From assembly GCF_013407595.1 (NCBI RefSeq), contig NZ_JABEKX010000001.1, positions 1,072,522 through 1,136,521 on the forward strand: a DNA stretch of 64,000 nt, given 5' to 3'. The notes under the pieces were generated by a model. It had not been told where the DNA came from, did not search any database, and saw only the letters and a list, made by a program, of their open reading frames with translations. Numbering within the stretch: the stretch's first letter is position 1; the number at the start of each line of letters is the position of its first letter. This document shows positions 25,093 to 35,490 of the stretch, piece by piece. This stretch comes from Lacticaseibacillus absianus. Its GTDB lineage: Bacteria > Bacillota > Bacilli > Lactobacillales > Lactobacillaceae. The position numbers and the translations under genes were made by a program.

Positions 25093-26180
25093 TGGAGAGA
25101 CGACTAGGGATATCGGTTTATCCCGACCACAGTGATGAAGCCCAAAATGAGGCCTACCTTAGGTTAGCGAGCCAATATGGATTCTCCCGGCTCTTTATGA
25201 GCATGCTTGAGATCAAGGGCGATCAGGCCCAGGTGGTCGCCAAGTATCACCGCTTGATCACGCTGGCCAAAACGCTGGGCTTTGAAGTGATCCTGGACGT
25301 TGCGCCGGCGATTTTCACCGCGCTCGGGGTCTCGTATGATGACCTGAGCTTTTTCAAATCGCTTGGTGCAGACGGCATTCGGCTCGATGAAGGGTTCGAC
25401 GGCAAGAAGGAAGCGCTGCTCACCTACAACCCGGAGCACCTGATCATCGAGTTGAACATGAGCAACGATGTCGCCTACCTCGACAATATTTTGAGTTATC
25501 AAGCGAATAAGCCGTTCCTCTACGGGTGTCACAACTTTTATCCCCAGGCAGGGACTGGCTTGCCAGAGGACTTCTTCATGCAGTGCACGGCGCGCTTCAA
25601 GCGCCAGAACATCCGGACGGCGGCGTTTATTACGTCGGCTAGCGGGGCGATCGGACCGTGGAACGTCAATGATGGGCTCCCGACCTTGGAGGTGCACCGC
25701 GCGCTCCCCATTGAGGTGCAGGCGAAATCCCTCTTTGCGACCGGTCTGATCGATGATGTGATCATCGGCAACGCGTACGCGAGCGAAGCTGAGCTGAAGT
25801 CGCTGAGTGCGCTGGATCGCTACCAGGTCGTCTTCAAGGTCGCGTTGCAACCGGCCGCCAACCCGGTCGAGCGTGAGATCGTACTCGCGAATCAGCACGT
25901 TCGCCGTGGCGATATTGCCGCCCAGATGATCCGCTCGACGGAGACACGCAAGCGTTACAGCGGTGAGGCCAACCCGCCGCACGATGCCGATCATGCCTTC
26001 AAGCGGGGGGATGTCGTGATCGGAAATGATCGATTTGGCAAGTACAAAAACGAGCTGCAGGTCGTCTTGACGCCACATCAGGACGCACGCAAAAATCTCG
26101 TGGGGCACATCGACGCGGCAGAGTTAGGGCTGCTAGACTTCATTGGCCCGTGGTCAAAATTTAAGTTTACGGAAGGGTAG
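25092..26180 (+). CDS. MupG/DUF871 TIM-barrel protein
   Basis: The 362-residue protein begins ERRLGISVYPDHSDEAQNEA, with the core LGADGIRLDEGFDGK and CHNFYPQAGTGLPEDFF, all typical of DUF871/MupG proteins. It has an N-terminal TIM barrel and a C-terminal cyclophilin-like domain (GDVVIGNDRFGKYKNELQVV). MupG is a 6-phospho-N-acetylmuramidase, and relatives in other clusters probably cleave other 6-phosphoglycosides. Here it would split an imported 6-phospho-disaccharide containing an amino-sugar acid. ATG 25092 overlaps the previous stop. Confidence 0.85.
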   Translation: MERRLGISVYPDHSDEAQNEAYLRLASQYGFSRLFMSMLEIKGDQAQVVAKYHRLITLAKTLGFEVILDVAPAIFTALGVSYDDLSFFKSLGADGIRLDEGFDGKKEALLTYNPEHLIIELNMSNDVAYLDNILSYQANKPFLYGCHNFYPQAGTGLPEDFFMQCTARFKRQNIRTAAFITSASGAIGPWNVNDGLPTLEVHRALPIEVQAKSLFATGLIDDVIIGNAYASEAELKSLSALDRYQVVFKVALQPAANPVEREIVLANQHVRRGDIAAQMIRSTETRKRYSGEANPPHDADHAFKRGDVVIGNDRFGKYKNELQVVLTPHQDARKNLVGHIDAAELGLLDFIGPWSKFKFTEG

Positions 26181-26184
26181 CGCA

Positions 26185-27297
26185 ATGACAGACTTATATC
26201 TCAAAAATGGACGGACCGTTGACGGGGCACCGATCGAGCTCGGTATCACAGGCGGCCAGATCACAGCCGTTGGGCCGAAGTTGAACGGGCTGCAAGCGGC
26301 GGAGACGATCGATCTTAACGGTGATCACTACGTCTCGGCCGGGTGGATAGACGACCATACCCATTGCTACGAAAAGCTGACGTTGTACTACGATGACCCA
26401 GATCTGGATGGCGTCCCGACCGGTGTCACCACGGTGATCGACGCCGGGTCGACGGGCGCAGACAATATCGGTGATTTTTACCGGATCACGCGGGACAAGC
26501 GGACGAACGTGTACGCGATGATCAACGTGTCCAAAACGGGGATCCTGGCCCAAGACGAACTTGGGGATATGAATCGGATCCAAGATGACTTGATCACGCA
26601 AGCACTGGCAGACTATCCAGATTTCATTGTCGGGTTTAAGGTGCGTGAGAGCCACTCGGTCGTGATCGATAATGACGTCTTGCCACTGATCGCAGGCAAG
26701 CGGATCCAAAAGGCCAATGGGGACCTCCCGCTTATGGTCCACGTTGGTGCTAATCCGCCGGCGCTCAAGGATGTGCTCGATCTGCTTGAACCAGGCGACA
26801 TCTTGACGCACGCGTACAACGGTAAGCCCAATGGGATCATTGATCAGGAAGGCAATATCGCTAACTTTGTTTGGGCGGCATACAACCGCGGGGTCATCTT
26901 CGATGTTGGCCACGGCACCGATAGTTTCAACTTCAAGACGATGGCGATCGCCAAGTACGCCGGGCTGGATCCGTTCTCGTTGAGTACCGATATCTACCAC
27001 ACGAACCGTGAGAATGGGCCGGTCGTTGACATGGCGACGTGCATCGAGAAGATGCTGCTGCTCGGCTACACGCTACCTGAGGTGATCCCGATGATCACCA
27101 GCGCCCCGGCGCGGAATTTCCGGTTAGCGCAAAAAGGCAGTTTGGCCGTTGGCCAGGATGCCGATGTGACGATTTTCCAAGTGCGTCAGGGCCATAAGAC
27201 ACTGACCGATTCGAATCACAATGATCGTGAGACAGACACGTTAGTCGTGCCAACGCATACGATCGTTGCCGGCACGGTCTATACATTGGAGGGATAA
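26185..27297 (+). CDS. Amidohydrolase/deacetylase (EF_0837-type)
   Basis: The 370-residue metallohydrolase has the amidohydrolase signature DDHTHCYEK (HxH near residue 55). It also has GFKVRESHSV with the probable carboxylated Lys, MVHVGANPP and LTHAYNGKPNG with further metal His residues, and STDIYHTN with the catalytic Asp. It belongs to the group annotated as amidohydrolase EF_0837/AHA_3915, which clusters with DgaE/DgaF-like genes. The likely job is removing an N-acyl group so that the next enzyme sees a free amine. ATG 26185 follows GGAAGGG; an upstream frame start at 26143 lies inside the preceding gene. Confidence 0.88.
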   Translation: MTDLYLKNGRTVDGAPIELGITGGQITAVGPKLNGLQAAETIDLNGDHYVSAGWIDDHTHCYEKLTLYYDDPDLDGVPTGVTTVIDAGSTGADNIGDFYRITRDKRTNVYAMINVSKTGILAQDELGDMNRIQDDLITQALADYPDFIVGFKVRESHSVVIDNDVLPLIAGKRIQKANGDLPLMVHVGANPPALKDVLDLLEPGDILTHAYNGKPNGIIDQEGNIANFVWAAYNRGVIFDVGHGTDSFNFKTMAIAKYAGLDPFSLSTDIYHTNRENGPVVDMATCIEKMLLLGYTLPEVIPMITSAPARNFRLAQKGSLAVGQDADVTIFQVRQGHKTLTDSNHNDRETDTLVVPTHTIVAGTVYTLEG

Positions 27298-27298
27298 C

Positions 27299-28408
27299 AT
27301 GTCAGCGGATATTTATCAGCGCTACCACCTGAAACAAGTGATCAACGCCAGTGGCAAGATGACGATCCTGGGCGTCTCCCAGGTCTCTGAGGCGGTGCTG
27401 GCAGCACAGCAGTTTGGCGGCACGCATTTCTTTGAGATGAAGGACCTTGCCGAAAAAACTGGCGCCCACATCGCGCAGTTGCTCGGCGCAGAAGGGGCCT
27501 TGATCGTCAACTCGGCGTCGTCAGGGATCGCCTTGGCGGTCGCGGGGCTGATCGGCCAAGGAAGCCAGTATCACGCCTATCATCCCAACGACCCGCGTTT
27601 TACTAAGCGCGAGGTCGTCATGCCCAAAGGCCACAACGTTGATTACGGCGCGCCAGAGGACGTGATGATCGAGTTGGGTGGGGGCCAGGTGGTCGAAGCG
27701 GGGTATGCCAACATGTGTACGCCGGCGCACATCGACATGATGATCACGGATCGCACTGTGGCGGTGCTTTACGTGAAGTCGCACCACACGGTCCAAAAGA
27801 GCATGCTGTCTGTCACTGAGGCACTTGCGGTCGCGCACGCGCATGCGCTACCGCTGATCCTCGACGCTGCGGCAGAAGAGGACCTGATCAAATACGTCCA
27901 AATGGGTGTCGACATTGTGGTCTTCAGTGGGGCAAAGGCGCTGGAAGGCCCCGCCTCCGGTCTCGTCTTTGGGAAGAAGCAATACATCGATTGGATCGAG
28001 TTGCAGACCAGTGGGATCGGGCGAGCCATGAAGATCGGTAAGGATAACATCCTCGGGCTCACGGCGGCGATCGAGCAGTATCTGACGTCAGGGCCCGAGG
28101 CCGGGGCACATATGCTGGCACGACTGGACCCATTCGTCACCAAGCTGGACGAGATCGACGGGTTGAGTGCCAGCGTGGCCCAGGATGGTGCCGGTCGTGA
28201 GATCTACCGGGCGAGTGTCCGGGTCGATGCGCAGGCGCCGGTGACCGCCAAAGCGGTGACCGCGGCGCTCAAAGCGGGTGATCCGGCGATCTACACGCGG
28301 GAGTACCGCGCCAACGAGGGGATCATCGAGTTTGATATCCGGGCAGTGGATGAACGTGAGATGGCGCAGATCGTTGAACGGCTAAAAACAATCATGGAGG
28401 CAAAGTGA
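27299..28408 (+). CDS. dgaE: D-glucosaminate-6-phosphate ammonia lyase-like PLP enzyme
   Basis: The 369-residue enzyme belongs to the SelA-related PLP group that includes DgaE. VNSASSGIALAVAGL is the phosphate-binding region, LPLILDAAAEEDL holds the PLP-ring Asp, and VVFSGAKALEGPASG holds the Schiff-base Lys. DgaE eliminates water and ammonia from D-glucosaminate 6-phosphate, giving 2-keto-3-deoxygluconate 6-phosphate. It starts at ATG 27299, two bases after the amidohydrolase stop, and overlaps dgaF. The natural substrate may be another 2-amino-2-deoxy sugar acid phosphate. Confidence 0.85.
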   Translation: MSADIYQRYHLKQVINASGKMTILGVSQVSEAVLAAQQFGGTHFFEMKDLAEKTGAHIAQLLGAEGALIVNSASSGIALAVAGLIGQGSQYHAYHPNDPRFTKREVVMPKGHNVDYGAPEDVMIELGGGQVVEAGYANMCTPAHIDMMITDRTVAVLYVKSHHTVQKSMLSVTEALAVAHAHALPLILDAAAEEDLIKYVQMGVDIVVFSGAKALEGPASGLVFGKKQYIDWIELQTSGIGRAMKIGKDNILGLTAAIEQYLTSGPEAGAHMLARLDPFVTKLDEIDGLSASVAQDGAGREIYRASVRVDAQAPVTAKAVTAALKAGDPAIYTREYRANEGIIEFDIRAVDEREMAQIVERLKTIMEAK

Positions 28409-29151
28409 TGAGTGAATTACGTCCGAATTACTATAATGACCGGGTGGCGCTGAACGTGTTGGCCAACTCCGTCGAGAACGCGAAGGCTTGCTACGATGCG
28501 GCGGAGGGACACGTGGTCCTCGGGGTTTTGACCAAGAATTACCCCACTGACGAAGCAGCGATCGCGGATATGAAGCGGTATCAAGCCGCGATCGACAACG
28601 CGGTCTCCGTGGGTCTGGGCGCTGGTGATCCGAATCAGAGCCTGATGGTCAGTCGCGTCAGTCAGGTGGTGCAGCCACAGCATGTGAACCAGGTCTTCAC
28701 TGGTGTCGGGACGAGTCGTGCCCTGTTAGGCCAGTCAGAGACCGTGATCAACGGCTTAGTGTCCCCAACAGGCACAGTCGGGACCGTTAACATCGCGACT
28801 GGCCCGCTGAGTAGTCAGGCGCCTGCCGCTGAGGTCCCGATCGAGACCGCCATTGCCTTACTCAAGGATATGGGCGGGACATCGATCAAGTACTTCCCCA
28901 TGAAGGGGCTTGCGCATGAAGAAGAGTTTCGCGCAGTCGCCAAGGCGTGCGCGGAGAATGATTTTGACCTCGAACCAACGGGCGGGATCGACCTTGAGAA
29001 TTTTGAGGCGATCTTGACCATTGCGCTGGACGCAGGCGTCAAGCGGGTGATCCCGCACGTTTACTCGTCGATCATTGACCAAGCCACCGGCGACACGCGC
29101 CCAGCGGACGTTGCAACGCTCTATGAGATCGTCAAGAAGCTTGTCGATTAG
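28408..29151 (+). CDS. dgaF: 2-dehydro-3-deoxyphosphogluconate aldolase, DgaF type
   Basis: The 247-residue TIM-barrel protein matches the EF_0839/DgaF family, which is unlike classical KDPG aldolase Eda. Landmarks are VVLGVLTKNYPTDEAAIADM, GGTSIKYFPMKGL (Schiff-base Lys), and DFDLEPTGGIDLENF. It splits KDG-6-phosphate into pyruvate and glyceraldehyde 3-phosphate. Start ATG 28408 overlaps the dgaE stop (ATGA) and GGAGG lies 7 bases upstream. It connects the pathway to glycolysis. Confidence 0.88.
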   Translation: MSELRPNYYNDRVALNVLANSVENAKACYDAAEGHVVLGVLTKNYPTDEAAIADMKRYQAAIDNAVSVGLGAGDPNQSLMVSRVSQVVQPQHVNQVFTGVGTSRALLGQSETVINGLVSPTGTVGTVNIATGPLSSQAPAAEVPIETAIALLKDMGGTSIKYFPMKGLAHEEEFRAVAKACAENDFDLEPTGGIDLENFEAILTIALDAGVKRVIPHVYSSIIDQATGDTRPADVATLYEIVKKLVD

Positions 29152-29165
29152 CGGAGGCCCTGCTT

Positions 29166-30164
29166 ATGACGATCGCTGCATTTGGTGAAGTGATGTTGCG
29201 TTTGACGGTCCCCGAGCACTTGATGCTTGAGCAGACGGATCAGTTGCAGATGAGCTATACCGGGACGGGCGTCAATATCTTGGCTAGCTTGGCGCATTTT
29301 GGTCACGCGACGTCACTGATCTCCGCTTTGCCGGATAACCGACTAGGGCGAACCGCCGCGGGGGCACTGCGTCGGTTGGGGGTCAGTGATCGGTTCGTTC
29401 AATTTCGCGGGGACCATCTGGGGAGTTTTTTCGTGGAGCTCGGCTTCGGCAACCGGCCGGAAACGGTGACCTATCAGAATCGATTGGCCAGTGCGTTTGG
29501 GACGAGTAGCGAGCATGACTACCCCTTCGGTGCATCGCTAGCGGATGTGAACCTATTGCACATTTGTGGGATCTCGCTTAGCCTGACTGCGGGGACCCGT
29601 GAGGCTGCGTTCAATTACGCTGAGCAGGCCGCTAAGCGGGCCATTCCCGTGTGTTTTGACTTCAATTATCGGGTCGCGTTGAATCACAATAATTCCCACG
29701 ATCAGATGAAAGGGTATTACGAGCGGATCCTGCAACGCAGTAGCATCGTGTTTGGGAGTCGGCGAGACTTGACCGACTTGTTGGGCTATCCCCAGGATCG
29801 CGACGACGAATCGCTGTTCGCGCAGTTCGTCGCGCAGCACCATCTGACTGCATTTGCTGGCACACGGCGACTCACGCACGATGGACGAGACTATATTCAA
29901 GGCTTTCTGTGCGACGCGTCTGGGGTATATTGGTCGGACCAACAAGAAGTGATGATCCTCGATCGGATCGGTGGGGGAGACGCTTACGCGGCAGGGATCC
30001 TGCACGGTCTGCTTGAACGCTGGCCTGTCTCACGAACATTGCCGTTTGCCGTGGCGAACGCCGCTTTGGCGCATGCTCAGATCGGTGACAGTCCGCTGGC
30101 GACGACTGATCAAGTCGAGGCTTTCATTGCCAATCACGGGGTGACCGGTGCGCTGGTTCGGTGA
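29166..30164 (+). CDS. kdgK: PfkB-family sugar kinase, probable KDG kinase
   Basis: The 332-residue kinase starts MTIAAFGEVMLRLTVPEHLM and has GTGVNILASLAHFG near residue 36. The PfkB signature 2, DRIGGGDAYAAGIL, includes the catalytic Asp. The opening and the position after DgaF fit 2-dehydro-3-deoxygluconate kinase. As the last gene of the operon it would phosphorylate non-phosphorylated KDG entering from another route, so that both feed DgaF. Other ketoacid-sugar substrates remain possible. Confidence 0.85.
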   Translation: MTIAAFGEVMLRLTVPEHLMLEQTDQLQMSYTGTGVNILASLAHFGHATSLISALPDNRLGRTAAGALRRLGVSDRFVQFRGDHLGSFFVELGFGNRPETVTYQNRLASAFGTSSEHDYPFGASLADVNLLHICGISLSLTAGTREAAFNYAEQAAKRAIPVCFDFNYRVALNHNNSHDQMKGYYERILQRSSIVFGSRRDLTDLLGYPQDRDDESLFAQFVAQHHLTAFAGTRRLTHDGRDYIQGFLCDASGVYWSDQQEVMILDRIGGGDAYAAGILHGLLERWPVSRTLPFAVANAALAHAQIGDSPLATTDQVEAFIANHGVTGALVR

Positions 30165-30418: not shown

Positions 30419-31054
30419 GTGACGACTTTTTATTTTGTGCGGCATGGTCAAACAGAGATCAATCTAGCGAACCGGTTGAATGGGGGATCGGTCGACTCGC
30501 CCTTAACCGCCGCTGGCGTTGACGGGGCCACAACGGTCGGGCGGGTGCTCGCCACCCATCAGTTCACGCAAGTCGTGTGTTCGAGCATGCCCCGAACGCA
30601 GCGCACGACGGCGTTGATCATGGCCGAGAATCAGTTTCGGACGGTGACGCCGGTCCAGCCGGTCGACGGCCTGCGCGAGATGAACCTCGGGGACTGGGAT
30701 GGTCACCGCATCGCCGACTTGGCCGACCAGGCGCAGACGGCACTTTATTTTCACGACCCACTGGCTTTTGATGCGCACGTTGCGCCTGCGATCCACTCAG
30801 AAACATACGCGGCTGTGAGACAGCGGAGCCGAGCGGTGATCGATGCGGCCTACGCGGCCCATCCTGATGGCCGGATCCTGGTGGTCGCGCACGGCGTCGT
30901 TTTTCTGGTGCTCTTGAACGACCTTCTCGGCCGGCCACTTGCGCGGCTGCGCGAGTGGCCGTTGCTCGCCAACACCACCGTGACCAAGCTTCAGACCAGC
31001 GATGGCCACCACTACACGGTGAGCTACCGTGACCGGCTGCCGGCGGTGGACTGA
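30419..31054 (+). CDS. Histidine phosphatase family protein
   Basis: The 211-residue protein opens MTTFYFVRHGQTEINL, the RHG motif with the phosphorylated His. Further on are SSMPRTQRTT, the conserved REMNLGDWDG with the acid Glu, and VVAHGVVFLVLL with the second catalytic His. It belongs to the phosphoglycerate mutase-like acid phosphatases common in lactobacilli, which dephosphorylate small metabolites. GTG 30419 follows GAGGAG. It lies just upstream of the tyrosine attenuator promoter but ends before it. Confidence 0.88.
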   Translation: MTTFYFVRHGQTEINLANRLNGGSVDSPLTAAGVDGATTVGRVLATHQFTQVVCSSMPRTQRTTALIMAENQFRTVTPVQPVDGLREMNLGDWDGHRIADLADQAQTALYFHDPLAFDAHVAPAIHSETYAAVRQRSRAVIDAAYAAHPDGRILVVAHGVVFLVLLNDLLGRPLARLREWPLLANTTVTKLQTSDGHHYTVSYRDRLPAVD

Positions 31055-31075
31055 AAATTAATTTTGCGTGAGGGG

Positions 31076-31104
31076 TTGACTTCCCTTTCTCATACGCGTA
31101 TTGT
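31076..31104 (+). promoter_or_regulatory. Promoter of tyrosine-leader unit
   Basis: TTGACT (31076-31081), a 17-base spacer and TATTGT (31099-31104). The Phe-leader unit has a promoter of the same design (TTGACA, 17, TATTCT). Both are followed by CATACCAG and an AGGAGTGTTGA ribosome site. Confidence 0.78.
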
Positions 31105-31134
31105 TCTCAACATACCAGTGCAGGAGTGTTGATT

Positions 31135-31194
31135 ATGACAAAATTAAGTCCAACACAGTTAAATCACTCGTATTACTACGGCTATTACGGATAG
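31135..31194 (+). CDS. Tyrosine-rich leader peptide
   Basis: A 19-residue frame starts at ATG 31135, eight bases after AGGAG (31122-31126). It reads MTKLSPTQLNHS and then YYYGYYG before TAG: five Tyr in the last seven codons. It is aligned over its whole length with the Phe leader 1.4 kb downstream (shared PTQLN, then two residues, aromatic run, Gly, aromatic run, Gly, TAG). It serves as the tyrosine sensor: scarcity of charged tRNA-Tyr should stall the ribosome in the Tyr codons, upstream of the folding switch. Confidence 0.85.
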   Translation: MTKLSPTQLNHSYYYGYYG

Positions 31195-31198
31195 CGGC

Positions 31199-31375
31199 TT
31201 GCATCGCCGATTGGATGCAAACCGCGCGCAAGCAGTTTGCATCCATGATGGTCGTAGCATTTAAGTATGCCATTACGCCACATGGATGAGGGATAACTCT
31301 CCATGTGGTCTTTTTCTTTCCGGAAAGAAGTAGGCCGGCCACGGGGGAGTGCCCCATGTGGCCGGCCTTTTGTTT
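31199..31375 (+). promoter_or_regulatory. Tyrosine attenuator, seven-segment switch with two terminators
   Basis: Segments: 1 (31199-31205 TTGCATC), 2 (31213-31222 GGATGCAAAC), 3 (31235-31247, GTTTGCATCCATG), 4 (31278-31288, CCACATGGATG), 5 (31300-31308 TCCATGTGG), 6 (31333-31347), 7 (31358-31367). Pairs 2:3 (10 bp), 4:5 (9 bp, then TCTTTTTCTTT) and 6:7 (10 bp, then TTTTGTTT) make the OFF fold with two terminators. Pairs 1:2 (7 bp), 3:4 (8 bp) and 5:6 (about 8 bp, one mismatch) make the ON fold. A ribosome at the stop codon covers segment 1 (OFF); one stalled at the first Tyr codons leaves it free (ON). Confidence 0.72.
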
Positions 31376-31407
31376 GACCCACAGCCCATTTTTCGGAGGA
31401 GAATACC

Positions 31408-32376
31408 ATGAAGAAGACACCGTTGATGACCACCCTAGCAGCAGTTGTGATGATCGTGAGCCTCGCCGCTTGCGGCAAAAAAGCCGAGTCCAAAGATTCA
31501 GACACCGTGAAGGTCGGGATCTTGCAGCTGATCGACCAAAGCGCACTGAACGCCGCTCGCAAAGGCTTCACCGAGGAACTGGCGGCCAATGGGTACAAGG
31601 GCAAAAAGATCGAGATCGACTACGTCAACGCCCAGGGCGATCAGGCCAACCTGAAGTCAATGAGCCAGCAGCTGGCCAAGGATGGTAACGATCTGAACCT
31701 TGCGATCGCGACCCCGGCGGCGCAGGCGCTGCTCAAGGAAGATAACAAGACGCCGATGTTGTTCACCGTTGTGACCGACCCGAAGTCAGCCGGACTCGTC
31801 TCGAACGTCAAGGCGCCTGACCAAAACGCGACGGGCGTGACCGACGCGGTCGATGTCTCGGGTCAGATCGCGTTCACGCATAAGCTGTTCCCGAAGGCCA
31901 AGAAGATCGGCCTGCTGTACAACGCCGCTGAGGAGAACTCGGTCGTTCAGATCCAGGAGGCGAAACGGGCGATCAAGAAGCTCGGGCTGACCGCCGTGGT
32001 CAAGACTGCCGCGACCACCAATGACGTGCAGCAGGCCGCAGAATCGCTGGCCGGCCAAGCCGATGCGATCTACATCCCGACCGATAACGTCGCGGCCGCC
32101 GCGATGCCGACGATCGGCAAGGTCTCCGAGGCAAAGAAGGTCCCAGTAGTTAATGCCGACGCGACGATGATCGCAAGCGCTGGCGTCGCGACGCAGGGGA
32201 TCAACTACGAGGACCTCGGGCGCCAGGCAGCCAAGATGGCGATCAAGATCCTCAAGGGTGAGCAGGTCAAGGACCTGGCCGTTGAAGCGCCGGCCAAGAC
32301 GTCCCTGGTCACCAACGCCAAGCGAATGAAGCTGTTCGGACTGACGCAGGCAGACGTTGAAGCGGCCGCCAAGTGA
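31408..32376 (+). CDS. ABC substrate-binding lipoprotein, TrpX family, Tyr-controlled
   Basis: The 322-residue lipoprotein has a signal peptide with lipobox SLAAC (Cys22) and belongs to the ABC_sub_bind (PF04392) family, with VGILQLIDQSALNAARKGF, YVNAQGDQANLKSMSQQLA and LAIATPAAQALL. The family includes TrpX, the tryptophan binder of lactic acid bacteria. It has a paralog at 32786 that lies directly before the permease and ATPase genes. The Tyr leader argues that it binds tyrosine or a tyrosine-linked compound. It has no permease of its own and no terminator before the next promoter, so it probably delivers to the downstream transporter. Confidence 0.88.
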   Translation: MKKTPLMTTLAAVVMIVSLAACGKKAESKDSDTVKVGILQLIDQSALNAARKGFTEELAANGYKGKKIEIDYVNAQGDQANLKSMSQQLAKDGNDLNLAIATPAAQALLKEDNKTPMLFTVVTDPKSAGLVSNVKAPDQNATGVTDAVDVSGQIAFTHKLFPKAKKIGLLYNAAEENSVVQIQEAKRAIKKLGLTAVVKTAATTNDVQQAAESLAGQADAIYIPTDNVAAAAMPTIGKVSEAKKVPVVNADATMIASAGVATQGINYEDLGRQAAKMAIKILKGEQVKDLAVEAPAKTSLVTNAKRMKLFGLTQADVEAAAK

Positions 32377-32451
32377 TCGTCGCCTAGACAGAAGTTTTCC
32401 CCCTGAACCGCACGTGAGCCGCCCCAGTTGAATCCGGTGAGAAAAAAGCAC

Positions 32452-32480
32452 TTGACATGAGAAATCGCTGAGTGTATTCT
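32452..32480 (+). promoter_or_regulatory. Promoter of phenylalanine-leader unit
   Basis: TTGACA (32452-32457), a 17-base spacer and TATTCT (32475-32480): near-consensus housekeeping promoter. Confidence 0.85.
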
Positions 32481-32524
32481 CGAACACATACCAGCGCGAC
32501 TGGTAATGTGAAGGAGTGTTGACT

Positions 32525-32587
32525 ATGAGACAAGCAATGCCAACACAACTGAATCGCGAATTTTTCGCCGGCTTTTTCTTCGGATAG
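32525..32587 (+). CDS. Phenylalanine-rich leader peptide
   Basis: A 20-residue frame starts at ATG 32525, eight bases after AAGGAG (32511-32516). It reads MRQAMPTQLNRE, then FFAGFFFG and TAG: five Phe in the last eight codons, and no Tyr or Trp. It is a clear paralog of the Tyr leader, with the aromatic residues exchanged. It should sense charged tRNA-Phe by ribosome stalling. Confidence 0.86.
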   Translation: MRQAMPTQLNREFFAGFFFG

Positions 32588-32592
32588 CGGGA

Positions 32593-32759
32593 CGCATCCC
32601 CGATGGATGTGAACCCGCGGTTCACATCCATGAGGCCGGCGCAGTTAAATGTGCAATCAACCGCCACATGGATCAACACAATCCATGTGGCCTTTCTTTT
32701 TCCGGAAAAAATGAAATGGCCAGCCACGTGGAATTGTGTCCCGTGGCTGGCCGTTTTTT
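32593..32759 (+). promoter_or_regulatory. Phenylalanine attenuator, seven-segment switch with two terminators
   Basis: Segments: 1 (32593-32599), 2 (32603-32615), 3 (32619-32632), 4 (32664-32673 CCACATGGAT), 5 (32681-32690 ATCCATGTGG), 6 (32718-32732), 7 (32742-32752). OFF pairs: 2:3 (13 bp), 4:5 (10 bp perfect, then CCTTTCTTTTT), 6:7 (11 bp perfect GGCCAGCCACG/CGTGGCTGGCC, then GTTTTTT). ON pairs: 1:2 (7 bp with one G-U), 3:4 (7 bp), 5:6 (9 bp, TCCATGTGG with CCACGTGGA at 32724-32732). Between the terminators lies TTTCCGGAAA, present also in the Tyr copy, where a U tract can pair with a following A tract. Confidence 0.74.
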
Positions 32760-32785
32760 GCTCAGTCAACCAGGAGGAAGAAATC

Positions 32786-33745
32786 ATGAAAATGCAAAAG
32801 GGACTCACCGTACTCGCCACCATCGCAATGCTCGCCAGCCTGGCCGCTTGCGGCCAACAGACGGACGCTAAAGACGGCACCGTTAAGATCGGGGTCTTGC
32901 AGTTGATTGACCAGACGGCCTTGACCGATGCGCGCAAGGGCTTCGAAGCCGAGCTCGCCAAGGCGGGCTACAAAGGGGATAAGGTCAAGATCGACTACGT
33001 CAACGCGCAAGGGGACCAGGCGAACCTGAAGACCATGAGCCAACGCCTCGCTAAGGACGGCAACGACGTCAACTTGGCGATCGCCACCCCGGCCGCCCAG
33101 GCGCTGCAGCAGGAAGACGCGAAGACGCCGATGGTCTTCACGGCTGTCACCGACCCCAAGGCCGCCGGGTTGGTCACCAACCTGAAGGCGCCCGACCGAA
33201 ACGCGACCGGTGTGGTGGACATGGTGGACATCCCGGCGCAGATCGCGTACATGCACAAGCTGTTCCCAAAGGCCAAGACGGTGGGCATGCTCTACAACGC
33301 CGCCGAGCAGAACTCCATCGTTCAGATCAAGGCGGCCGACCAAGCCGTCAAGAAGCTCGGCCTGCGTGTGGTCAAGCGCACGGTCGCGAGCACCAATGAC
33401 GTGCAGCAGGCGATGGAATCGCTGGCCAGCCAAGCTGATGTGATCTACGCGCCGACCGATAACACGGTGGCGGCAGCGATGGTGACTGTCGGCAAAGTCT
33501 CTTTGGCCAAGAAGGTGCCGGTCGTGCCAGCTGCCTCGACCATGGTCCAAGACGGTGGCGTGGCCAACATCGGCATCGACTACAAGGACCTGGGTCGCCA
33601 GACGGCCAAGCTGGCGATCAAGATCCTGAAGGGGCAGAAGGTCAACAAGCTGGCCGTTGAGACGCCGGCGAAGGTCACCGTGATCAAGAACGAGAAGATG
33701 ATGAAGGCCTTCGGGATCACCGATGCCGAGGCCGCACAGAACTGA
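32786..33745 (+). CDS. ABC substrate-binding lipoprotein, TrpX family, Phe-controlled
   Basis: The 319-residue lipoprotein (lipobox SLAAC, Cys22) is closely related over its length to the protein at 31408 (shared IGVLQLIDQTALTDARKGF, YVNAQGDQANLKTMSQRLA, LAIATPAAQAL, NDVQQAMESLA). ATG 32786 follows AGGAGGAAG. It is the first gene of an operon with permease and ATPase. The Phe leader points to phenylalanine or a phenylalanine-containing ligand. The pair appears to have arisen by duplication of leader, attenuator and gene together. Confidence 0.9.
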   Translation: MKMQKGLTVLATIAMLASLAACGQQTDAKDGTVKIGVLQLIDQTALTDARKGFEAELAKAGYKGDKVKIDYVNAQGDQANLKTMSQRLAKDGNDVNLAIATPAAQALQQEDAKTPMVFTAVTDPKAAGLVTNLKAPDRNATGVVDMVDIPAQIAYMHKLFPKAKTVGMLYNAAEQNSIVQIKAADQAVKKLGLRVVKRTVASTNDVQQAMESLASQADVIYAPTDNTVAAAMVTVGKVSLAKKVPVVPAASTMVQDGGVANIGIDYKDLGRQTAKLAIKILKGQKVNKLAVETPAKVTVIKNEKMMKAFGITDAEAAQN

Positions 33746-33776
33746 TTGTTGTCACACGATTTTTTGGAGGTAAAAG

Positions 33777-34676
33777 ATGGACATCCTGATTTCAAGCATC
33801 TCCCAAGGGCTTCTCTGGTCGGTCATGGCGATCGGCGTGTACCTGACGTTTCGGATCCTCGATATCGCCGACATGACCGCTGAAGGGAGCTTTCCGCTCG
33901 GCGCGGCGATCACCGCGCACCAGCTGGTCAGTGGGACCGGCCCGGTGCTCGCCACGCTGTACGGGGCGCTCGGTGGGGCGGTGGCCGGACTGGTTTCAGG
34001 GGTCTTACATACCAAGTTGAAGATCCCCGACCTCCTGACTGGGATCTTGACCATGACCGGGTTGTACTCCGTCAACCTGTTCGTCATGGGCCGGCCCAAC
34101 GTGTCGTTGCTGTCAGACGTCAAGACCGTTTTCACCCCTGTCGACTTCGGCGACCCGACGTTGAACGCCATCGCAGTTGGGTTAGTGGTCGCGGCGATCG
34201 TGATCGCCGGCCTCGTATACTTCTTCAACACCGAGATGGGCTTGGCTGCCCGGGCGGTGGGGGATAATCAGGCGATGAGCGCCGCCAATGGGATCAACAA
34301 CGACACGATGAAGATCGTGGTCTACATGGTCTCCAACGCCCTGATCGCTTTGTCAGGGGCCTTGATGGCGCAGACCAACGGGTTCGCGGATAGCTCGATG
34401 GGGATCGGCACGATTGTTATCGCGCTGTCTGCGATCATCATCGCCGAGATCCTGATCCGGAACCTGAGCTTCGGTTGGCGGTTGGTCACGATCATTGCCG
34501 GGGCGATCATCTACCGCTGGATCATCGCGTGGGTGCTCGATCGAGGGGTCGACCCGAATGCCTTGCGCCTGTTCTACGCGCTGATGCTCGTGCTGTTCCT
34601 CGCGCTGCCGCTGATCCGCAAGCAGTTTCAGCAGAGCATGGCGCGCCGTGAGAACCGTCGTCGGATGAACGAGTAG
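33777..34676 (+). CDS. ABC transporter permease, TrpY family
   Basis: The 299-residue membrane protein has about eight hydrophobic helices of the branched-chain amino acid/sugar permease (BPD_transp_2) type. It contains the cytoplasmic coupling segment FFNTEMGLAARAVGDNQAMSAANGI, which contacts the ATPase. It lies 31 bases after the substrate-binding gene and 10 before the ATPase gene. With them it forms a TrpXYZ-like importer for aromatic amino acids. Confidence 0.9.
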   Translation: MDILISSISQGLLWSVMAIGVYLTFRILDIADMTAEGSFPLGAAITAHQLVSGTGPVLATLYGALGGAVAGLVSGVLHTKLKIPDLLTGILTMTGLYSVNLFVMGRPNVSLLSDVKTVFTPVDFGDPTLNAIAVGLVVAAIVIAGLVYFFNTEMGLAARAVGDNQAMSAANGINNDTMKIVVYMVSNALIALSGALMAQTNGFADSSMGIGTIVIALSAIIIAEILIRNLSFGWRLVTIIAGAIIYRWIIAWVLDRGVDPNALRLFYALMLVLFLALPLIRKQFQQSMARRENRRRMNE

Positions 34677-34686
34677 GAGGTCAATC

Positions 34687-35490
34687 ATGCCAGCATTGGA
34701 AGTCAAAGCGTTGCATCAGTACTTCGAAAAAGGGACCGTCAACGAGAACCATGCCTTGAAGGGCATCGACCTGACGCTAGACCCGGGGGACTTTGTCGCG
34801 ATCATCGGCGGTAACGGGGCCGGTAAATCCACGCTGCTCAACAGCGTGGCGGGGTCGATCCCGGTCACGCACGGCCAGATCAAGATCGCCGATAAGGACG
34901 TGACCTACCAGAACGTCGCGAAGCGCGCCCGGTTGATTGCACGGGTGTTCCAGGACCCGAAGGCCGGCACCGCGCCGCGCCTGACCGTCGAGGAGAACTT
35001 GAGTCTGGCTTTGAAGCGCGGCCAGTGGCGTAACTTTTGGGCCAGCGGGGTCAAGAAGCGCGACCGTGCACTGTTTCGTGAGAAGCTGGCAAGCCTCGGC
35101 CTCGGCCTGGAGGAACGCCTGACAGCTGAGATCGGCCTGCTGTCTGGCGGTCAGCGCCAGGCGGTGACGTTGCTGATGGCAACGTTACAGGCGCCGGAGC
35201 TACTGTTGCTCGACGAGCACACCGCTGCCTTGGACCCGCAGACTAGCGCGACGGTCATGACGCTGACCGAGCAGCTCGTTGAGGCGCAGCAGATCACCAC
35301 TCTGATGATCACGCACAACATGCAAGACGCGCTGCGCTACGGCAACCGGCTGATCATGCTCGACCACGGCCGCATTGCGGTGGACATTAAGGGGCCCGAG
35401 AAAGAGGGGCTGACAGTGGCTGACCTGATGCGTCTCTTCAAGGAACAAAGCGGGCGTGAGCTCAACGATGATGCGGTCCTGCTCAGCTGA
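34687..35490 (+). CDS. ABC transporter ATPase, TrpZ family
   Basis: The 267-residue ATPase has Walker A GGNGAGKSTL near residue 41, the LSGGQRQAV signature near residue 155, Walker B LLLLDEHTAAL and the switch His in MITHNMQ. The Q-loop is VFQDPKAG. It powers the permease encoded just before. ATG 34687 follows AGGAGGTCA. Last gene of the Phe-controlled operon. Confidence 0.95.
   Translation: MPALEVKALHQYFEKGTVNENHALKGIDLTLDPGDFVAIIGGNGAGKSTLLNSVAGSIPVTHGQIKIADKDVTYQNVAKRARLIARVFQDPKAGTAPRLTVEENLSLALKRGQWRNFWASGVKKRDRALFREKLASLGLGLEERLTAEIGLLSGGQRQAVTLLMATLQAPELLLLDEHTAALDPQTSATVMTLTEQLVEAQQITTLMITHNMQDALRYGNRLIMLDHGRIAVDIKGPEKEGLTVADLMRLFKEQSGRELNDDAVLLS

Follow-up and report, generated by a model that had tools for sequence, protein, structure and literature searches.

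Tyrosine- and phenylalanine-codon leaders before paralogous binding-protein genes of Lacticaseibacillus absianus: a probable attenuator pair from a family spread across Lactobacillales

We analysed a 64,000-nucleotide stretch of the Lacticaseibacillus absianus genome (contig NZ_JABEKX010000001.1, positions 1,072,522 to 1,136,521 of the forward strand; hereafter the window), in which two short leader open reading frames (ORFs) each precede a gene for a substrate-binding protein (SBP) of an ATP-binding cassette (ABC) transporter. The whole system spans 31076-35490, in the order Tyr leader, SBP 1, Phe leader, SBP 2, permease and ATPase. The leaders are 19 and 20 codons long, and each unit has five competing RNA segments and two terminators. 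A preliminary description of this DNA, made from its letters alone, had reported two units, each with a promoter-like site, a ribosome site, a leader with five Tyr or five Phe codons, terminators and a paralogous SBP gene. All of these can be read directly in the sequence; the interval given for them there starts downstream of the first promoter-like site, P1. The parts of the system are as follows.

31076-31104, plus strand: promoter-like site P1 (TTGACT, 17 bases, TATTGT), a consensus match only
31122-31126, plus strand: AGGAG ribosome site of the Tyr leader, from the sequence
31135-31194, plus strand: Tyr leader peptide MTKLSPTQLNHSYYYGYYG and stop codon; five Tyr and no Phe codons
31176-31182, plus strand: Tyr unit segment 0, Tyr/Gly codons able to pair with segment 3b (helix H0)
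31198-31208, plus strand: Tyr unit segment 1, predicted to be masked by a ribosome at the stop codon
31213-31224, plus strand: Tyr unit segment 2
31235-31251, plus strand: Tyr unit segment 3
31251-31258, plus strand: Tyr unit segment 3b, partner of the Tyr codons
31277-31288, plus strand: Tyr unit segment 4, in antiterminator 3:4 or terminator 4:5
31299-31319, plus strand: Tyr unit segment 5 with U-rich tail (terminator 1)
31277-31309, plus strand: Tyr unit terminator hairpin with U-rich tail, by eye
31333-31372, plus strand: Tyr unit second terminator-like hairpin, by eye
31408-32376, plus strand: SBP 1, predicted Tyr-binding lipoprotein, PF04392; Asp at the position of Glu-263 in CD0873
32452-32480, plus strand: promoter-like site P2 (TTGACA, 17 bases, TATTCT), a consensus match only
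32512-32516, plus strand: AGGAG ribosome site of the Phe leader
32525-32587, plus strand: Phe leader peptide MRQAMPTQLNREFFAGFFFG and stop codon; five Phe and no Tyr codons
32566-32572, plus strand: Phe unit segment 0
32591-32599, plus strand: Phe unit segment 1
32605-32615, plus strand: Phe unit segment 2
32619-32633, plus strand: Phe unit segment 3
32634-32641, plus strand: Phe unit segment 3b
32663-32674, plus strand: Phe unit segment 4
32681-32701, plus strand: Phe unit segment 5 with U-rich tail (terminator 1)
32663-32691, plus strand: Phe unit terminator hairpin with U-rich tail, by eye and by a simple terminator scan
32718-32759, plus strand: Phe unit second terminator-like hairpin, by eye
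32786-33745, plus strand: SBP 2, predicted Phe-binding lipoprotein, PF04392; Ala at the position of Glu-263 in CD0873
33777-34676, plus strand: ABC permease (PF02653), probably common to both SBPs, from the gene order
34687-35490, plus strand: ABC ATPase (PF00005)

P1 and P2 are the only promoter-like sites in 30950-33000; since shuffled sequences give 1.0 expected sites, they are weak evidence for promoters when taken alone. The simple terminator scan lists one (32663) of the four hairpins that we read by eye in the window. The start of SBP 2 is the ATG led by a ribosome-binding site (RBS), and a longer frame from 32603 is also among the ORFs. Both SBPs match PF04392 (ABC_sub_bind) with 226.8 and 237 bits (gathering cut-off 25.9) and stay below the cut-off of the NCBIfam TrpX equivalog NF041285, at 304.3 and 326.5 versus 390 bits. 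The earlier naming of both as TrpX-family binding proteins is therefore valid in the wide sense of PF04392 and does not reach TrpX proper.

A scan of the whole window returned no Rfam family at its own cut-off. The result bears on a T-box riboswitch sensing uncharged tRNA, a regulator that is reported at trpX of Streptococcus suis (PMC9382623). As no T-box (RF00230) is found in the window at the Rfam threshold, nor up to E 10 at 30950-32900, we regard this explanation as extremely improbable.

Two further features of the leader regions may be recorded here. CAACAC in the Pro-Thr codons (31151-31156) is complementary to GTGTTG at 31126-31131, with a similar arrangement in unit 2, as if a hairpin could close over the leader start. 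Between promoter and ribosome site lies a repeat, ACATACCAG(..CTGGT), at 31110-31119 and 32486-32504, seen by eye in many units of the genus and perhaps forming a 5' hairpin.

The leaders recur throughout the genus. A fixed pattern (AGGAG, ATG, PTQLN) was found in 16 of 397 family genomes, comprising 15 of 26 of the genus and one genome outside it (G076). In all 15 pattern-positive genus genomes both a Tyr and a Phe leader could be read, with the Pro of the motif sometimes replaced by Ser, Thr or Gln; AGGAGTGTTGA, in the ribosome-site region of the Tyr-type leader, is present in the 23 leaders of the genus that were read for it. A covariance model built from 28 leaders, which we call R1, matches 30 of 30 Lacticaseibacillus genomes with a best E per genome of at most 3.5e-21, the model having been trained partly on these genomes. 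Such recurrence bears out the view that the leaders are more than chance. All 64 genus matches that were read carry at least four aromatic residues in the final ten leader positions. A lack of conservation in related genomes had been named beforehand as grounds for giving up the idea; what we find is that leaders and aromatic codons are both conserved.

A linked Tyr/Phe pair is present in 28 of the 30 genomes, with Tyr before Phe in 16 (two of them Tyr-Tyr-Phe) and Phe before Tyr in 12, and the remaining two have a single Tyr unit. The pair, which the preliminary description had called rare, is thus the usual state of the genus. Four of the 30 genomes possess an extra, unlinked Tyr unit (L163 784, L155 2966, L147 764 and L139 3283), which precedes a more distant SBP; in the three cases read, that SBP is 50-53% identical to SBP 1. 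In all 12 genomes with Phe before Tyr, L134 and L148 among them, the permease and ATPase genes come after the second, Tyr unit; in the window it is the Phe unit that they come after. Placed behind one attenuator or the other depending on the species, these genes may answer to different amino acids. Units of the genus also carry a second terminator-like hairpin, as judged by eye.

The peptide motif by itself is a weak marker, since a PTQLN-pattern search of a contig collection gave 58 stretches, of which 35 are without an aromatic leader. The other 23 comprise 17 from Lacticaseibacillus or 'Lactobacillus sp.', of which one is truncated at the end of its locus, and six from Enterococcus. The own-genome matches L001 and L004-L006, as well as L039 and L040, were judged to be chance.

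Leader type follows the phylogeny of the binding proteins. A tree of 60 SBPs from the genus needs 2 changes of leader type versus 19.7 when shuffled (0 of 500 shuffles as low), and leader type tracks the SBP clade although gene order varies. The tree holds 60 of 64 units, the dropped four being three without a gene read and one with a short gene. L242, whose leader by eye is MKQQAISTQKFYFSYFR, was left out of the tree; scripted leader calling was wrong in some weak rows. The preliminary description had proposed this check, and the aromatic codons do co-vary with the SBP clade. A wider tree of 138 rows was made with a faster model, has flagged long branches, including some in the Trp clade, and contains L198 twice (as a Trp and as a Phe/Tyr/Trp leader). 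In it, a single starred clade unites the SBPs that follow Trp-containing leaders, and 10 rows from other Lactobacillaceae genera, with FAFSFFFR leaders, make up a Phe-only clade of their own, the second of this kind.

Comparing the window SBPs with proteins of solved structure points in the same direction. The only solved sequences that match them are CD0873, VC_1101 and SP1069, and the top-scoring relative of both is CD0873 (6HNI), a tyrosine-binding lipoprotein of Clostridioides difficile. CD0873 uses Glu-263 to bind Tyr; Ala stands at this position in the Phe binder VC_1101 and the Trp binder SP1069, and SP1069 has Gln-284 where CD0873 (Tyr-279) and VC_1101 carry Tyr (PMC6816091). In place of the Glu of CD0873, SBP 1 has Asp and SBP 2 has Ala. 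Within the genus, Asp occupies the Glu-263 position in 32 of 33 Tyr-leader SBPs with a residue there (one row has none), and Ala does so in 24 of 24 Phe-leader SBPs (two rows have none); truncated SBPs were entered as gaps in this table. All nine distinct SBPs that follow a Trp-containing leader have Gln at the Tyr-279 position, which none of the 128 other rows has. Two of these nine leaders, L198 (which also has Phe and Tyr) and L207, contain a single Trp.

At the RNA level, RNAalifold applied to the 28 leaders gave, unprompted, a helix in which the stall codons pair with the segment just 3' of segment 3; we refer to it as H0. Over these 28 leaders, the terminating state (H0 with 2:3 and 4:5) has 97.0% of cells paired and two-sided change in 13 of 26 pairs (8.1 in shuffles, reached by 0 of 500), and pairing falls to 29-39% when the partners are slid out of register. 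The antiterminating state (1:2 with 3:4) has 91.6% of cells paired and two-sided change in 7 of 22 pairs, a value reached by 20 of 500 shuffles. H0 alone is 96.4% paired, with a covariation score of 0.607 versus 0.224 shuffled (0 of 500) and 35 cells with two-sided change versus 11.3 shuffled (0 of 500). The pairing analysis thus gives the putative attenuators a mutually exclusive terminator and antiterminator, as expected of such a device.

The stall codons and their partner 3b change together, as far as base pairing can tell: CUACGGC faces GUCGUAG in the Tyr leader, CGCCGGC faces GGCCGGCG in the Phe leader and CUUUAGC faces GGCUAAAG in Enterococcus. The duplex of each leader's own codons and 3b averages -12.7 kcal/mol versus -9.2 with permuted partners over 64 genus rows (0 of 10000 permutations as low), and -12.1 versus -7.8 kcal/mol over 104 rows (0 of 10000). 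A second, pattern-anchored definition of the segments gave -11.0 for own and -7.2 for permuted partners over 100 rows (0 of 5000), a set that includes 11 Trp-type and two Ile/Leu leaders and in which the Trp leaders are weakest, at -7.95 with their own 3b. In the duplex test 17 of 106 R1 rows, with the segment-3 pattern unmatched, were dropped.

We then placed a virtual ribosome on the RNA: everything up to 12 nucleotides (nt) beyond the first base of its A-site codon was masked, and pair probabilities (P) were calculated for the remaining sequence as far as segment 4. A ribosome at the stop codon gives the 28 leaders a mean P(2:3) of 0.92 and P(1:2) of 0.00; moved back to a place four to seven codons ahead of the stop, it gives 0.75-0.77 for P(1:2) and 0.67-0.71 for P(3:4). 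In the window, the Tyr unit has a P(1:2) of 0.98 when the ribosome is on any of the first three Tyr codons and of 0.54-0.57 when it is on either of the last two; the Phe unit has 0.89, 0.89 and 0.86 on its first three Phe codons. The RNA as far as segment 4 refolds with ribosome position, and the early fold therefore answers in the sense of an attenuator. The last aromatic codon is the penultimate one, leaving a one-codon spacer before the stop, in 162 of 190 leaders and in 63 of 64 in the genus.

An attenuator family is thus indicated by conservation, covariation, co-segregation of leader with SBP clade, and pocket residues. We consider it probable, at roughly 0.87, that both units work as ribosome-mediated transcription attenuators whose codon set can be exchanged, in which we infer the stalling, its kinetics, the termination and the ligands; that the leader codons report the ligand of the SBP behind them is part of this same explanation. 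Each leader ORF has a codon run for the amino acid of the genes it is predicted to regulate, a trait by which attenuators are recognised. RNA polymerase would make a leader with five segments competing as 1:2, 2:3, 3:4 and 4:5, with a translating ribosome behind it. If Tyr-tRNA (unit 1) or Phe-tRNA (unit 2) were scarce, the ribosome would wait on the five-codon run, leaving segment 1 free; 1:2 would form, segment 3 would capture segment 4 ahead of the synthesis of segment 5, and with 3:4 in place the SBP gene would be transcribed. With the amino acid plentiful, a ribosome at the stop codon would mask segment 1, so that 2:3 would form and 4:5 would terminate transcription. H0, between stall codons and 3b, would compete with 3:4 and may also shut untranslated RNA in the Phe unit; for the Tyr unit the simulation gave no support for such shutting.

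The pair itself probably arose when leader and SBP gene were duplicated and codons, 3b and SBP pocket changed together. The preliminary description had likewise proposed duplication of the whole unit followed by a switch of the sensed amino acid, which is borne out by the conservation of leaders and codons and by their following of SBP clade and pocket residue. The window pair would then represent a single branch within a family that spans the order and can exchange its codon sets.

The extent of R1 matches is consistent with such a family. At E of at most 0.01 per genome, R1 matches 251 of 395 genomes of the order, where chance would give about four, and 61 of its 80 genera; in the class it matches 23 of 250 genomes, five of them outside the order, and the three of these five that were read have NRFYFSYF leaders. 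Leader-peptide attenuation had been taken beforehand for a mainly proteobacterial and actinobacterial device. It extends beyond those groups, as seen from the His leader-peptide attenuators described in Firmicutes (PMC2965389 and PMC9413887) and from the spread of the present family over the order. Leaders were sampled from a chosen set, consisting of 40 genomes searched again and 60 further regions. It yielded 198 matches, or 192 without six weak reverse-strand ones, with at least two places doubled (L185/L213 and L210/L291). A leader was called in 190 of the 192 forward matches, and 180 have at least four aromatic residues in the last ten, a count that is not unbiased, aromatic leaders having been the training set of R1.

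Among the targets are PF04392 SBPs, SBP_bac_3, aroE, DAHP synthase, chorismate synthase and a fusion of an MFS protein with chorismate mutase, as well as nine class I/II aminotransferases, eight of which have a leader with Trp beside Phe or Tyr. An Ile leader, NIIISIIR (L251 2421-2569), precedes a PALP enzyme that is ilvA-like by eye, and an Ile/Leu leader, VLLLLSLIIR (L254 318-475), precedes a Peripla_BP_6 protein; their own codon/3b pairing amounts to -14.9 and -9.1 kcal/mol, respectively. Such leaders are few (2 of 192), and the gene functions are assigned from family only. A T-box match just under the Rfam cut-off (80.4 versus 93 bits) lies near the Ile leader, at L251 946-1193 on the minus strand. 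Taken together, the codon sets of the family are Tyr with Phe (widespread), Tyr, Phe (two separate clades), Phe/Tyr/Trp, probably Trp, and rarely Ile/Leu.

The Trp set leads to Rfam RF04312, the 'trpB motif', which was published as a strong riboswitch candidate with more than 900 representatives, mostly before an ABC transporter gene, and for which the authors left a classic attenuator possible; the term 'leader peptide' was not found in the main text of that paper, as available (PMC11109978). Our search for RF04312 gave matches in 4 of 299 genomes of a phylum sample, one of them over the cut-off, and in 15 of 40 chosen genomes, six of them over the cut-off. All eight loci over the cut-off (from six genomes, hence not independent) have an RBS-led ORF with two Trp codons, SWQSWR-like, ending 18-24 nt upstream; these leaders emerged from a search in which Trp was no criterion. 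Below the cut-off, 13 of 21 loci have an aromatic leader; L188-L190, L201-L204 and L212 have none and look like chance. The model aligns at segments 2-5 in 4 of 8 other loci of the Phe/Tyr type as well, with 33.7-43.8 bits, while a fifth aligns out of place and three give no match. At L196, a Trp leader with TQLN (STQLNTAWKSW) precedes trpB. The RF04312 Trp branch is likely akin to the window family; the window units themselves stay short of formal membership in RF04312.

RF02863, 'Enterococcus sRNA 2410', scores over its cut-off of 61 bits in 6 of 8 other loci given and reaches 22.9 bits, under that cut-off, in the Tyr unit of the window. Its namesake in Enterococcus faecium is an expressed RNA of 195 nt with two transcripts on Northern blots (PMC5593968), from which one might argue that the window leaders, too, act as free small RNAs. 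The matches to RF02863, however, lie over leaders that precede SBP or aroE genes, and a terminated leader would yield such bands. We thus hold a free small RNA to be very improbable and read sRNA_2410, from its homology, as another branch of the leader family.

Several observations weigh against ribosome-mediated attenuation with exchangeable codons, or narrow it. A one-unit genome on a long branch, G080 (L132 1691), combines a Tyr leader with an SBP of the Phe clade and Thr at the pocket, possibly an independent switch. SBPs behind leaders with both Phe and Tyr have Ser at the pocket position in 36 of 46 rows (Ala 5, Asp 3, Phe 2), outside the published rule, and of the eight Tyr-leader rows beyond the genus five have Ser, two Thr and one Asp; the rule thus holds cleanly within the genus and for Trp, and more loosely elsewhere. 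The further pair types of the antiterminating state are equalled by 111 of 500 shuffles and the number of H0 pairs with two-sided change (5 of 6) by 66 of 500, and the pair counts and H0 were scored on alignments that yielded, or were fitted to, the structure. Trp leaders pair with each other's 3b at -5.6 kcal/mol, no better than with the 3b of other classes (-5.5 to -7.1). RF04312 is linked to the window units by alignments at segments 2-5, but these reach 29.9 and 30.7 bits (E 0.13 and 0.088), below the cut-off of 59, and of the 14 Trp-type loci R1 picks up five (E 1.7e-5 to 0.04), missing nine. The Enterococcus relatives are without a U-tract after 4:5. In those that were read, the second terminator-like hairpin seems to be the one with a U-tract.

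The simulation contributes further difficulties. With the ribosome two or three codons before the stop, where codons are still aromatic, P(1:2) is 0.13 or 0.34, and in the Phe unit of the window it is 0.04 and 0.02 at the last two Phe codons; the Tyr unit keeps a P(3:4) of 0.62 at the stop codon. In ribosome-free RNA up to segment 4, the means over the 28 leaders are 0.43 for H0, 0.53 for 1:2, 0.36 for 2:3 and 0.30 for 3:4. The Phe unit is then shut (H0 0.87, 2:3 0.86, 3:4 0.04) and the Tyr unit open (1:2 0.90, 3:4 0.81), so that H0 is better supported as a pairing than as a safeguard in each unit, the support for the pairing being good. When segment 5 is added, 4:5 prevails at equilibrium at all ribosome positions (mean P 0.80-0.93; 0.97-1.0 in the window units) and P(3:4) is at most 0.12. 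The decision must therefore be kinetic, with 3:4 forming first and then persisting. Ribosome-mediated attenuation, as first suggested for these units, fits the anatomy and the fold up to segment 4 and sits badly with the equilibrium that includes segment 5.

An equilibrium fold that is independent of the ribosome through segment 5 would suit a riboswitch, in which an aromatic amino acid is bound by the RNA itself, the mechanism put forward for the trpB motif, and the leader ORF is incidental. The structured RNA, the terminator and the wide distribution would suit it too. An incidental ORF is difficult to reconcile with RBS-led aromatic-codon leaders in 8 of 8 over-cut-off RF04312 loci and 64 of 64 genus matches, with a codon set that shifts with the SBP pocket, and with an early fold that responds to ribosome position in the right sense; this, together with the latitude left by the authors of the motif, makes a riboswitch unlikely in our view.

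The leaders also hold something that pure codon sensing does not require: upstream of the stall codons, TQLN (window 31150-31164 and 32540-32554) is kept as a peptide, with Leu written by five different codons across 60 genus rows. This conservation would be expected of nascent-peptide sensing of the TnaC type, with TQLN in the exit tunnel and arrest caused by free Tyr or Phe rather than uncharged tRNA. A five-codon run for one amino acid is, by contrast, the mark of tRNA sensing. QLN is missing from 13 of 14 Trp-type leaders, and arrest by an abundant amino acid would switch an importer on when it is unneeded. We therefore give nascent-peptide sensing a small chance, similar to that of a riboswitch, and retain ribosome-mediated attenuation as the better account of both units.

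A broader proposal, which we favour by a narrow margin over its negation, is that an ancient Lactobacillales scaffold serves as an exchangeable amino-acid gauge. Codons, 3b and SBP pocket would change in concert, the leader would act as a barcode of the transporter (Trp, Tyr, Phe, Tyr with Phe, or Ile/Leu), the trpB 'riboswitch' and sRNA_2410 would be branches, and TQLN would strengthen the stall. In place of a rare pair, the analysis points to an order-wide, little-recognised regulatory family in lactic acid bacteria, and it offers an ordinary mechanism for a published riboswitch candidate (the trpB motif) and a small RNA (sRNA_2410). It also yields a rule that can be checked at the bench, whereby the leader codons are read and the ligand is predicted. 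Tyr, Phe (twice), Tyr with Phe, probably Trp and rarely Ile/Leu would be natural replicates of how the specificity of a sensor is rewritten when the sensing codons are themselves base-paired.

Upstream of the system, at 26143-30164, amidohydrolase-, PLP-enzyme- and aldolase-like proteins and a PfkB kinase are encoded in a row (read by eye; the kinase alone was scanned), perhaps an amino-sugar acid pathway. A search of the open literature, with subscription papers outside its reach, found no paper on PTQLN leaders or on aromatic leaders of the order, and the Rfam family leu-phe_leader, which would be possible prior art, is absent from the Rfam matches obtained.

The overall design is reminiscent of the trp, pheA and his attenuators of Escherichia coli and Salmonella, in which a leader peptide with codons for the sensed amino acid is combined with competing hairpins and an intrinsic terminator. 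The window units share all three features and differ in the helix between stall codons and antiterminator, in having two terminators and in their ABC binding-protein targets; kinship is unsupported by sequence. The His attenuators of Firmicutes likewise work by a leader peptide, with His codons and in front of other genes; for the his genes of Lactobacillales themselves T-boxes are reported (PMC9413887). RF04312 resembles the window units in its alignable segments 2-5, in its SBP and trpB targets and, at the over-cut-off loci, in Trp leaders of similar layout, whereas it was described as a riboswitch candidate and the window units score about half its cut-off. RF02863 was described as a small RNA (PMC5593968), unlike the window leaders, yet it is a homologous leader RNA whose structure includes both H0 and hairpin 1:2.

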